In this document: piece by piece, positions 27,381 through 34,753 of the stretch
Position numbering within the stretch: position 1 is the stretch's first letter
Layout: each line of letters begins with the position of its first letter
DNA from: Candidatus Gottesmanbacteria bacterium RIFCSPHIGHO2_01_FULL_40_15
GTDB taxonomy: Bacteria; Patescibacteriota; Microgenomatia; 2-02-FULL-39-11
Assembly (NCBI GenBank): GCA_001779115.1
Contig: MFJF01000005.1
Location: forward strand, 38,849-76,921
DNA length: 38,073 nucleotides
Direction of reading: 5' to 3'
The notes under the pieces: model-generated
Seen by the model: the letters and a program-made list of their open reading frames with translations, nothing else
The model's database searches: none
Told to the model about the DNA's origin: nothing
Position numbers and translations under genes: made by a program

Positions 27381-28142
27381 TTATTTATTAACGGTTTTTA
27401 TACCCGGGTAAAGGGTTTTTTTATCCTTTTTCATTTTTCCGGAAATAGCAGTTGATCCGGATTTTTCCCTCAAAGATTCAATTACTTTTTTCATTAAAAT
27501 TACATTTGTTGCTTTCATAACTTCATATGTATTGAGCTGATTAACAGGAGTTACGGAAAGATTTTGCAAATTCCTGGATGCCAAAAAAACTTCCCGATTA
27601 ACTTTATCAGTCACCAGAAGAGTTTTTGTAAATTTATCTTTTTTCTTGTTAAAAAGATTAAAACTCGTTAGAAATTTAGCCATTTCTTTGGTTTTTGGAG
27701 GAAAATCATTAAAATCCATAACAATTTTTACCGAATCGGAGTTAAATTTTTGCGTAAGAGCTTGAAAAAGAGCTTTTGTTTTCATTTTATACGGAAAATT
27801 AAGGCTGTAATTTCTGATTTTCGGTCCGTGGGCAATTCCGCCACCGACAAAAATCGGTGCTTTGATGTCGCCATGTCTGGCCCGGCCGGTACCTTTCTGG
27901 CGGTATATTTTCCGGGTTGAACCCGAAGTTTCGCTTCTCGTTTTTACTTTATGCGTTCCTGCCCTTTGATTGGCCAGGTAAATTCTGACTGCCTGGGCTA
28001 AAAGTTGAGGATTTACCGGTACACCGAATATTTCGGACGGAAGAGTAATTTTAGCAATTTTATTACCCTGCAAATTAAAGACATCCGTTTTTAAAACGGT
28101 TTTATCTAAATCATTTCGGGTAACCGGTTTTTTTCGGGGCAT
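27381..28142 (-). CDS. rplD: ribosomal protein uL4
   Basis: Lines the exit tunnel; in E. coli it also represses the S10 operon by stimulating termination in the leader. The tunnel loop TRSETSGSTRKIYRQKGTGRARHGDIKAPIFVGGG-type region (about 68-102) is clear. The 253 residues exceed the usual 200-215, with about 18 extra N-terminal residues and about 30 basic C-terminal ones. It starts 3 nt after rplC and lies downstream of a hairpin that could be its regulatory target. Confidence 0.97.
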   Translation of the reverse strand: MPRKKPVTRNDLDKTVLKTDVFNLQGNKIAKITLPSEIFGVPVNPQLLAQAVRIYLANQRAGTHKVKTRSETSGSTRKIYRQKGTGRARHGDIKAPIFVGGGIAHGPKIRNYSLNFPYKMKTKALFQALTQKFNSDSVKIVMDFNDFPPKTKEMAKFLTSFNLFNKKKDKFTKTLLVTDKVNREVFLASRNLQNLSVTPVNQLNTYEVMKATNVILMKKVIESLREKSGSTAISGKMKKDKKTLYPGIKTVNK

Positions 28143-28145
28143 ATT

Positions 28146-28802
28146 TTATTTTTCCTTAAATATTTTTCTGATTATTAATAAAGAGTTTCTTTTTCCGGCT
28201 ACCAATCCTTTCACTGTCAGGATATCTTTATCCGGGTCGACATTAATAATTTCCAAATTTTTCACCGTGACTCTGTCATTTCCCATCCGGCCGGCCATTC
28301 TTTTTCCTTTATAAACCCGTCCAGGAGTGGTGGTTTGACCTATTGAACCGGGAGCTCTTTCACGATCTGACTGTCCGTGTGTTCTGGGGCCTCCTTTAAA
28401 ATGATGCCTTTTGACGACACCGGCAAATCCAATACCTTTTGATGTGCCGGTAACCCAGACCCGGTCACCAGCCTTAAACACTTCCGAAGCGGTAATTTTA
28501 TTTCCCGGTTTTACAGATTCCCCGACGGAATCAATGTCCTCAAGTTTTACTTCTTTTAAAAAACGGGGCGGATTTTTATCCATCCCCGATTTTTGCAATT
28601 GTCCCAATAATGCTTTAGAAATAGTTTTCGGACGGCGGTTACCCAATCCGAGAATGACGGCATCATAGCCGTCTTTGTCTTTTTGTTTTATTCCGACAAT
28701 ACGACAAGGACCGGTTAATATATTGGTAACCGGAATTCTATTACCCTTTTTGTCAAAAGTTTGAGTCTGATTAATTTTTGATCCGATTATTGCATTTAAC
28801 AT
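28146..28802 (-). CDS. rplC: ribosomal protein uL3
   Basis: Early-assembling large-subunit protein reaching the peptidyl-transferase centre. Motifs are AFKAGDRVWVTGTSKGIGF-like VFKAGDRVWVTGTSKGIGFA, VVKRHHFKGGPRTHGQSDRE, and SIGQTTTPGRVYKGKRMAGR with the conserved Gln that is methylated in E. coli. The 218 residues are standard. It is first gene after a strong terminator-like hairpin, and its ATG has no Shine-Dalgarno site. Confidence 0.98.
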   Translation of the reverse strand: MLNAIIGSKINQTQTFDKKGNRIPVTNILTGPCRIVGIKQKDKDGYDAVILGLGNRRPKTISKALLGQLQKSGMDKNPPRFLKEVKLEDIDSVGESVKPGNKITASEVFKAGDRVWVTGTSKGIGFAGVVKRHHFKGGPRTHGQSDRERAPGSIGQTTTPGRVYKGKRMAGRMGNDRVTVKNLEIINVDPDKDILTVKGLVAGKRNSLLIIRKIFKEK

Positions 28803-28822
28803 GATAAATAAAAAAATTCTCT

Positions 28823-28850
28823 AAAAAAATTAGCCCCGGATCGGGGCTAA
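28823..28850 (-). terminator. terminator-like hairpin between rpsJ and rplC
   Basis: The minus-strand RNA forms TTAGCCCCG/CGGGGCTAA (9 bp, 3-nt loop) followed by seven U residues, a textbook intrinsic terminator. Only 20 nt remain to the rplC ATG. Just upstream, CTCTATTG/CAATTAGAG can form a second hairpin, and a CGGAT segment near 28864-28868 could pair with ATCCG in the terminator loop. It may act as an attenuator for the S10 operon. Confidence 0.8.
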
Positions 28851-28946
28851 ATAGATTCCTAATCCGTGTACTCTAATTGTCTGCAATAGAGCAGAACAGA
28901 AACTTAACTTTTTTTTCTAATTTATCGTAGTTTCTTAACACTGGCC

Positions 28947-29255
28947 TTACATTTTGATAGTAATATCCACTCCAGCAGGTAATTCCAAATGCATAAGAGA
29001 ATCGATAGTTTTATCCGTCGGTTCAATTATATCAATTAGCCGTTTATGAGTTTTAATTGTAAAATCCTCACGGCTATCCTTATCGGTAAAGGGAGACCGA
29101 GGGACGGAATAATGTTCACGATGCGTCGGAAGCGGAATAGGACCTACAACACGGGCACCGGTTCTTATAGCCGTATCCAATATTTTCTGACAGGAATCAT
29201 CAATGATTCGACCGTCATAAGCTTTTAAACGTACTCTTATTCTCCCTTTCGGCAT
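28947..29255 (-). CDS. rpsJ: ribosomal protein uS10
   Basis: Small-subunit head protein and, as NusE, part of transcription antitermination complexes. It contains [60 protein letters not shown] and a C-terminal [12 protein letters not shown]. The 102 residues are standard. It follows tuf by 28 nt and is separated from rplC by a 144-nt spacer with a strong hairpin. Confidence 0.98.
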
Positions 29256-30500: not shown

Positions 30501-30527
30501 AAAAAACTACCCAAGTTTTTTTGGGTA
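30501..30527 (-). terminator. hairpin plus U-tract at the 5' end of the tuf mRNA
   Basis: TACCCAA/TTGGGTA (7 bp, 6-nt loop) is followed on the minus strand by G and six T. From the promoter the transcript would start at about the first base of the hairpin. No minus-strand gene lies upstream, so it cannot serve to end an upstream transcript; it must act on the tuf RNA itself, as attenuator or stability element. Confidence 0.65.
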
Positions 30528-30533
30528 ATCAGA

Positions 30534-30636: not shown

Positions 30637-31527
30637 ATGTTTGAATTTATAAAAACTCATAAAGTTACGGTAATTCTCCTTTTGGTAATCGCATTGTTCC
30701 TTTTTAAAAATATTTTTGTGGCGTTTCCGTTTTCAGACAGAACTCAAAGGAATTATACCGGCGGCTATGATACAGGGATTTCCCAGGAAATGAACCTCAA
30801 ATCCGCGCCGGCTTTTGAAAGAAACATTCTGCCTCCTTCTTCAGATTACGCCCCGGCACCTGAAGTTTCTGATCGAAAAGTTATCCGGGAATCCCAAATG
30901 TCCCTGCAGGTTAAAAATGTCCGAACGGCTGTTGATGAAATAACTGACTATGCCCAAAGGCAGGACGGTTATATGGTTAACACTTCAATTTCCAATCCCG
31001 GAGAAGCTCCAACCGGTACTATTACCATCCGTATTCCTCAAACAAAATTAAACGACTACCTTTCTTTTTTGAGAACCTTGGGTATCAAAGTTGTTTGGGA
31101 AAATATTTCAGGAACTGATGTGACCGATGAATATGTCGATTTGGACGCAAGGATTGCCACTCTTAATCAAACTCAAGCCAAATTTGAGGAAATATTTACC
31201 AGGGCAACGGAAATTTCCGATATTATCAATATTCAAAGGGAAATTATTAATACCCAATCCCAGATAGATTCTTATAAAGGCCAACAGAATTATCTTGACA
31301 AAAGCTCTCAAATGTCGAAAATTACAGTATATCTGTCAACGGATGAATTCTCCCTACCCTATGCTCCTTCCGAATCCTTCAGGCCTGAAGTTATCTTTAA
31401 ACAGGCGGTCAGAACTCTGGTTACCCTGATTCGGAAAATTGCGACTTTAATTATCTGGACTTTGGTATATTCAGTGATTTGGGTCCCGGTATTGATACTG
31501 ATATTATATTTAAAAAGGAAGAAATAA
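30637..31527 (+). CDS. DUF4349 domain membrane protein
   Basis: A 296-residue protein of the DUF4349 family (PF14257), whose function is unknown. An N-terminal membrane helix (about 9-30) is followed by a Pro-rich linker, then the domain (about 85-265): VIRESQMSLQVKNVRTAVDE, GEAPTGTITIRIPQTKLNDY, and a coiled coil DLDARIATLNQTQAKFEEIF. A second membrane helix (about 265-291) and a basic end KRKK close it, so the domain should face outward. It is the only plus-strand gene in the right-hand 25 kb, set between tuf and fusA and ending 19 nt from the fusA stop. Confidence 0.85.
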   Translation: MFEFIKTHKVTVILLLVIALFLFKNIFVAFPFSDRTQRNYTGGYDTGISQEMNLKSAPAFERNILPPSSDYAPAPEVSDRKVIRESQMSLQVKNVRTAVDEITDYAQRQDGYMVNTSISNPGEAPTGTITIRIPQTKLNDYLSFLRTLGIKVVWENISGTDVTDEYVDLDARIATLNQTQAKFEEIFTRATEISDIINIQREIINTQSQIDSYKGQQNYLDKSSQMSKITVYLSTDEFSLPYAPSESFRPEVIFKQAVRTLVTLIRKIATLIIWTLVYSVIWVPVLILILYLKRKK

Positions 31528-33686: not shown

Positions 33687-33716
33687 AAAAAAATAACTAG
33701 GGTATAAAATCCCTAG
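33687..33716 (-). terminator. terminator-like hairpin between rpsG and fusA
   Basis: CTAGGG/CCCTAG (6 bp, 8-nt loop) is followed on the minus strand by TTATTTTTTT. It ends 19 nt before the fusA ATG. A TAGAAT hexamer (5 of 6 to -10 consensus) overlaps the end of the U-tract and sits 12 nt before the ATG, so a near-leaderless fusA promoter could overlap the terminator. Confidence 0.7.
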
Positions 33717-33739
33717 CTTAATGCAAAAAAAACTTTCCC

Positions 33740-34726: not shown

Positions 34727-34753
34727 AAAAAATTGGAACTTTCAGAAGTTCCA
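34727..34753 (-). terminator. terminator-like hairpin between rpoC and rpsL
   Basis: TGGAACTT/AAGTTCCA (8 bp, 4-nt loop CTGA) is followed by A and six T on the minus strand. Only 15 nt remain to the rpsL ATG. A TATATA about 7 nt upstream of the stem could be a -10 box that would place the hairpin at the transcript's 5' end, as at tuf. Confidence 0.75.

Follow-up and report, generated by a model that had tools for sequence, protein, structure and literature searches.

The window, by which we mean the whole stretch of 38,073 nucleotides analyzed here, derives from a member of Microgenomatia (Patescibacteria), with relatives including Gottesmanbacteria and Roizmanbacteria, and its minus strand carries rpoC, rpsL, rpsG, fusA, tuf, and rpsJ, followed by rplC, rplD, and the remaining S10-spc-alpha genes. 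Between rpsJ and rplC, whose ATG is at 28802, lies a spacer of 144 nt containing most of the features collected in Table 1. The hairpin in this spacer (TTAGCCCC-GATCC-GGGGCTAA; 9 pairs, 6 of them G-C) was found just as an initial annotation of the DNA had described it, GC-rich, followed by seven U residues, and placed 20 nt before rplC, and the second, upstream hairpin reported there also folded in the MFE structure. This terminator ranked at the top of a scan of the region from 24 to 38 kb, in which 25 terminator-like sites were detected against 15.4 expected. Its placement upstream of the S10 operon, as given in the annotation, holds only in part: the terminator heads the genes from rplC onward, but rpsJ, which encodes S10, is situated 5' of it, so that a gate at this position would sit at rplC and S10 itself would not be controlled. 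The folding stability of the whole spacer (161 nt) was unexceptional (z = -1.88), and the case therefore rests on comparison with relatives.

Table 1. Position of the putative attenuator and its neighboring genes in the window
Feature	Position	Strand	Basis
rpsJ (S10), 5' of the terminator, outside the gate	28947..29255	-	NF001861, 143.4 bits
Candidate mini-ORF GTG...TAG, VLRNYDKLEKKVKFLFCSIADN*	28873..28941	-	Frame search; start codon uncertain, no ATG
Upstream (second) hairpin CTCTATTGCAGACAATTAGAG, arms CTCTATTG/CAATTAGAG	28871..28891	-	MFE and centroid fold; overlaps the end of the candidate mini-ORF
Putative antiterminator strand A, CGGATTAGG	28858..28866	-	Duplex with terminator -13.6 versus shuffled -8.0 kcal/mol, p 0.005; CGGAT conserved in most relatives
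Partner of A: 3' half of terminator 5' arm, loop, first 3'-arm bases	28837..28845	-	Complementarity; A:T predicted at a probability of 0.87 while the terminator is incomplete
Intrinsic terminator hairpin TTAGCCCCGATCCGGGGCTAA	28830..28850	-	Sequence and terminator scan; a terminator directly 5' of rplC in 13/14 window-family genomes
U-tract, 7 T (TTTTTTT)	28823..28829	-	Sequence and terminator scan
20-nt gap from U-tract to rplC, without recognizable Shine-Dalgarno, too short for a promoter	28803..28822	-	Sequence
rplC (L3), gene 1 of the putatively gated operon	28146..28802	-	TIGR03625, 236.7 bits
rplD (L4), gene 2 of the putatively gated operon	27381..28142	-	TIGR03953, 213.7 bits

Other features of the locus were also observed. 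The start of rplC has no Shine-Dalgarno sequence, and in some relatives (L085, L089, and L092) the start codon directly follows the U-tract (TTTTTTTATG); tuf has AAAGGAG. Further terminator-like hairpins with U-tracts occur on the minus strand shortly 5' of rpsL, fusA, and tuf (34734-34753, 33695-33718, and 30505-30530, respectively), the one before tuf beginning almost at the predicted transcription start, and these may be further attenuators. On the opposite strand, a gene for a DUF4349 protein (30637-31527, +; PF14257) splits the str operon between fusA and tuf.

Spacers or regions upstream of rplC were gathered from the window family (f1, 14 genomes), from f8 together with f41, from f6 and f3, and from other Microgenomatia. 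The conservation of the hairpin in relatives, which the initial annotation had named as a check, was clearly borne out, with a terminator-like hairpin and U-tract no more than ~110 nt 5' of rplC in 13 of 14 f1, 29 of 30 f6, 21 of 23 f8, 12 of 30 f3, and 17 of 27 other sequences, against shuffled means of 0.2, 1.4, 0.7, 0.6, and 0.8, respectively. The f3 count is lowered by a strict loop limit, and GAGTGAG...CTCACTC-TTTTT hairpins are visible in most f3 sequences. The U-tract of the relatives usually ends a few to ~30 nt 5' of the start codon, so that no promoter fits between the terminator and rplC; for the window, the initial annotation had seen no clear promoter in this gap, and the distance from U-tract to rplC indeed leaves no space. 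Nearly all leaders of f6, f3, and f8 have a promoter of the TTGAC/TATAAT type 5' of the terminator (TTGACC-17-TATAAT in f6; TTG(A)-17-TATACT, the -10 being extended, in f8; TTGCAT-17/18-TAnAAT in f3), which most relatives carry within the spacer, and transcripts of the operon must therefore cross the terminator. No clean -10 was found in the spacers of the window, L082, L083, L084, and a few other f1 members, which may depend on a weak promoter or on read-through from tuf-rpsJ, and the lack of a clear promoter is where the case for the window itself is weakest.

These observations bear on the plainest account of the hairpin, namely that it ends the tuf-rpsJ transcript and that rplC is served by a promoter of its own. 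Such a boundary would suit the strong U-tract after rpsJ, but only 20 nt are left before rplC, the promoter of most relatives is placed so that rplC transcripts have to traverse the terminator, the f3 leader stays with rplC even where rpsJ is far off or missing from the locus, and the antiterminator strand described below is conserved. We regard this account as highly improbable, and the comparison of sequences supports a role of the hairpin as a conserved attenuator of the rplC operon, more than as a unit boundary.

A possible CGGAT/ATCCG pairing had been proposed from the window alone, and it proved to be one part of a longer complementarity: CGGAT (28866-28862) can pair with ATCCG (28841-28837), and the duplex extends to CGGATTAGG/CCCCGATCCG, with 8 pairs, including one G-U, and one mismatch. 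This alternative pairing of strand A with the terminator (A:T) is conserved in relatives and is mutually exclusive with the terminator, as in ribosome-mediated attenuators. The strands are CCGGATTGG or CAGATTGG with CCAATCTG in f6, CTCGGATGAG/CTCAACCGAG in f8, and GGATGTAGGG with varying terminators in f4. Because MAFFT misaligned f1 members with replaced hairpins (L082, L084, and L093) in alignment A1, pair counting was abandoned in favor of duplex energies, which were controlled by shuffles and swaps. By this measure, A paired with its own terminator better than did dinucleotide shuffles (p<=0.05) in 9 of 14 f1 and 9 of 9 f6/f6r leaders, and a leader's own A surpassed the A of another family in 2149 of 2572 cross-family swaps, except that f1 terminators are matched by A from f4 or f8 no less well than by the A of f1 itself. 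Swaps within f1 favored the leader's own A over that of another genome in 115 of 182 cases, which is suggestive but not decisive, and those across f6 genomes (41/88) carry no information, as both A and T hardly vary in that family. Between the congeners L082 and L084, both sides of the pairing have been replaced (GGATTaGG/CCcGATCC versus TTTGGCaGG/CCGCCAAA). Strand A was not found in f17, f21, f30, and f3, and the class-wide A:T test failed for these families.

The strongest conserved feature, a mini-ORF stop abutting the antiterminator, suggested ribosome-mediated attenuation, which was absent from the options considered in the initial annotation. The mini-ORF of the relatives spans 3-20 codons, and its start often coincides, or nearly so, with the predicted transcription start. 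In f6, the ATG lies 7-10 nt after the -10 hexamer in 25 of 25 leaders, which puts it no more than ~3 nt from the expected transcription start, and the first in-frame stop falls 5-10 nt before A in 20 of these, compared with 2 and 0 in the other two frames and with a mean of 1.39 (maximum, 6 of 24) when the ATG-A segment was shuffled; this frame test left out 5 of 30 loci for which the script found no expected A, ATG, or -10. When only one leader per genus was retained, a stop 0-15 nt before A was present in 14 of 14 (2 and 5 in the other frames), and the ATG-to-A lengths were evenly spread modulo 3. A held-out set of 16 additional f6 leaders, collected once the rule was fixed, had the stop at 0-15 nt in 15 cases (2 and 4 in the other frames) and at 5-10 nt in 8 (shuffles, 1.0; maximum, 5). 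All 12 f1 leaders with an ATG carried a stop 0-14 nt before A (other frames, 2 and 3; shuffled mean, 2.56, with 0 of 2000 shuffles reaching 12). The 25 mini-ORFs of f3 (3-7 codons) all end 16-22 nt 5' of the conserved helix that follows, compared with a scatter of -67 to +33 in the other frames, and in f8 the stop precedes GTCTC by 6-16 nt in 15 of 20 leaders, with 4 more at a TGA within CGGATGAG. The arrangement is missing from several genomes of f6 (L344, L347, and L323). Judging from these sequences, the frame-keeping of the mini-ORF stop is not predicted by conserved RNA structure alone, and the short ORF typical of a ribosome-mediated attenuator is found in the relatives (comparison of f1, f6, and f3 together with the folding model, translation being predicted).

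The peptides encoded by the f6 mini-ORFs (9-20 codons) are unrelated. More generally, leader peptides differ between and within families without a common residue run, and no regulatory codons for one amino acid were found in them. An arrest peptide or an amino-acid sensor was rejected because the peptides differ and the reading frame moves against the RNA motif.

In the spacer of the window, no ATG mini-ORF was present, only a GTG frame, which starts 5 nt past the rpsJ stop and whose TAG lies 6 nt before A. Mini-ORFs with a GTG start were seen in another family, too (L292 and L295; GTG GAT AAR GTT CGT CAT TAG). Since chance alone can readily place a stop at such a distance in AT-rich DNA, the mini-ORF of the window is a candidate only; we infer that the window works like its relatives, either from the GTG start or through translation coupled to rpsJ.

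In the folding model, the ribosome was taken to cover -12 to +15 nt relative to the P site. As long as the terminator was incomplete, the A:T probability in f6 was 0.85 with no ribosome and 0.84-0.88 when a ribosome stood 3-9 codons short of the stop; it was 0.74 at two codons and 0.34 once the stop codon occupied the A site. The corresponding values in the window were 0.87, 0.87-0.88, 0.77, and 0.16. In the model, A:T is thus broken only by a ribosome at the mini-ORF stop. Strand A of f6 hardly pairs upstream (0.02), and the antiterminator is predicted to be the more stable state in many full-length f6 leaders. The complete terminator of f1 is predicted to be more stable than A:T, so that the antiterminator there could act only kinetically, as a delay, and f1 leaders with a stop 9-15 nt from A displayed a small masking effect in the folding.

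The proposed mechanism relies on the order of elements in the RNA, namely a very short ORF, strand A, the terminator, and rplC. With no ribosome on the mini-ORF, A would engage the terminator's 5' arm and loop, and RNA polymerase would read through; a ribosome at the mini-ORF stop would cover the start of A, allowing the terminator to form and shutting the operon. The signal sensed would be the completed translation of a mini-ORF that has no common regulatory codon, plausibly as negative feedback on translation capacity. The conserved terminator, the upstream promoter of the relatives, the A:T complementarity, and the in-frame stop at a fixed distance are apparent from the comparison. Termination at the hairpin presumably occurs in vivo, and the sign of the response, with completed translation leading to termination and its lack to read-through, is that predicted by the model. 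On balance, the hairpin is probably the terminator half of a translation-gated transcription attenuator of the rplC-rplD... operon in Microgenomatia.

Leaders that bind r-proteins are known to control such operons, among them the L4/S10 system of E. coli (PMC10931766) and a predicted L4 leader 5' of rplC in Archaeoglobi (PMC7247131), and the initial annotation had envisaged an L4-like attenuator at this site. L4, L3, or another product of the operon would then bind the leader 5' of A and stabilize the terminator, with the mini-ORF being incidental or modulating access. The conserved domain of ~100 nt between mini-ORF and terminator in f3, the conserved f8 element CCAAAAGTCTC, and the f4 loop CCUA, which by eye could pair with UAGGG of A, are consistent with such a ligand. 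However, autogenous control leaves the in-frame stop of the ATG frame at a fixed distance unexplained, the leaders have no Rfam match, and no conserved r-protein aptamer was recognized in f1 when its spacers and alignment A1 were inspected by eye, which makes this possibility rather unlikely in our view. What stands of the earlier proposal is a conserved attenuator, with a terminator, upstream promoters, and alternative pairing in relatives, but not one of the E. coli type, whose leader precedes rpsJ; here, rpsJ is 5' of the terminator. Ribosome-mediated attenuation without regulatory codons fits better than an E. coli-type L4 attenuator.

The additional conserved structure in f3 and f8 suggests a further ligand, and an r-protein-binding element could act together with a ribosome-gated mini-ORF on one antiterminator strand. 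Conserved non-coding structure does accompany the mini-ORF in f3, f6, and f8, but f1 has little conserved structure besides A and T, and the ligand is hypothetical, so we consider a mixed device of this kind very unlikely. The sign of the response might also be reversed, with a ribosome on the mini-ORF opening the 5' hairpin and favoring read-through. An f6 subclade (L331, L332, L334, L340, and L353; also L060 and L070) has lost strand A and carries the terminator ATCCTT...AAGGAT-TTTTTTTT inside the mini-ORF, where an initiating ribosome would more likely block termination, i.e., act with the opposite sign. In the common f6 type, strand A is almost free of upstream pairing and a ribosome at the stop lowers A:T, which renders the reversed sign distinctly unlikely.

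Conserved leaders of other kinds were encountered in the same survey. In f8 (L110, L113, L115, and L271-L289), GATACTTTGG, placed between -35 and -10, and CCAAAAGTC(TC), placed in the leader, make up a conserved inverted repeat across the promoter, either an operator or an RNA stem, and in L117 and L118 this repeat is a compact hairpin with compensatory changes. The strongly conserved structured domain of f3 (L208-L237; CAGTAGATCGCGCGTC...GATACGGCGATT...GATACTGAGTGAG), which is situated between the mini-ORF and the terminator before rplC, had no Rfam match among three loci scanned. Other Patescibacteria classes (L299, L303, L308, L309, and L316) have different conserved leaders, with a promoter and a hairpin before rplC and no obvious mini-ORF (e.g., ATAACGGAATAAT...GTCCTTAAGGAAACTAT...GTCGGAAAAG-TTTTTTTT). 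The rpsJ-rplC spacers with CATAGCCAATRCGGC...GCTATGG, or with a GCATGCGGGCA..TGCCGCCCGC hairpin, in Chloroflexota and another bacterium (L004-L009, L040, and L041; L020, L023, L029, L034, and L045) look like further r-leader candidates. In the sample of the phylum outside Microgenomatia, only 6 of 24 loci had a terminator before rplC, and several leaders (L299 and L303) had no ATG after the promoter; the claim of translation-gated attenuation is therefore limited to Microgenomatia.

Among known systems, ribosome-mediated attenuation of the trp/ilv type is similar in having a mini-ORF, mutually exclusive antiterminator and terminator, and a stop-codon ribosome that masks the antiterminator, as modeled here; in the M. 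tuberculosis ilvB1 attenuator, ~26 nt are masked by the ribosome at the stop, so that the antiterminator cannot form (PMC13236596). The window and its relatives also have the intrinsic terminator that such attenuators carry in the leader, 5' of the first gene. Unlike that type, the leaders described here precede ribosomal-protein genes and have no family-wide regulatory codons, the mini-ORF starts at or near the predicted transcription start, and the f6 antiterminator is predicted to form by default, with A almost unpaired with upstream RNA. The E. coli S10 operon, controlled by L4 in a leader before rpsJ (PMC10931766), shares attenuation at an intrinsic terminator in the leader of an rplC/rplD operon, whereas the leader here lies between rpsJ and rplC and a translated mini-ORF is indicated. 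The predicted L4 r-leader of Archaeoglobi, located directly 5' of rplC-rplD-rplW-rplB (PMC7247131), is comparable in its position, but it is archaeal, a predicted L4 binder, and without Rfam similarity to our leaders; the table of new r-leaders published there has none for Patescibacteria. L20 (infC) and L10(L12)4 (rplJL) of B. subtilis, cited in PMC10931766, are r-protein transcription attenuators, which likewise choose between terminator and antiterminator in the leader of an r-protein operon but are read by an r-protein, as opposed to a ribosome on a mini-ORF. Rfam scans at gathering and permissive thresholds returned no relevant family: the window matched only tRNA-Pro at threshold, the best sub-threshold match to the spacer was rimP (29.7 bits versus 47), and the scanned relatives gave none. 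No comparable device in Patescibacteria was described in the literature searched. Given the lack of an Rfam match and of such a device in that literature, the arrangement is best classed as a new form of attenuation and not as a member of the L4/S10 family.

We give about an even chance to the broader proposal that this control is class-wide in Microgenomatia, where finishing a leaderless mini-ORF would shut r-protein transcription and the leader would serve as a sensor of ribosome capacity with no r-protein ligand and no regulatory codons. The control of r-protein synthesis is known mainly as feedback of free r-proteins on their own mRNA. If our proposal is true, the largest r-protein operon would be read out by the translation of a mini-ORF, instead of or besides r-protein feedback. 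Patescibacteria have reduced genomes and few ribosome-assembly factors (PMC12641178), and in this lineage, of which few members have been cultured, the leader would sense translation capacity directly. The rule of an in-frame stop <=15 nt from the antiterminator can be checked, and the way in which Patescibacteria balance ribosome production would become testable with simple reporters.
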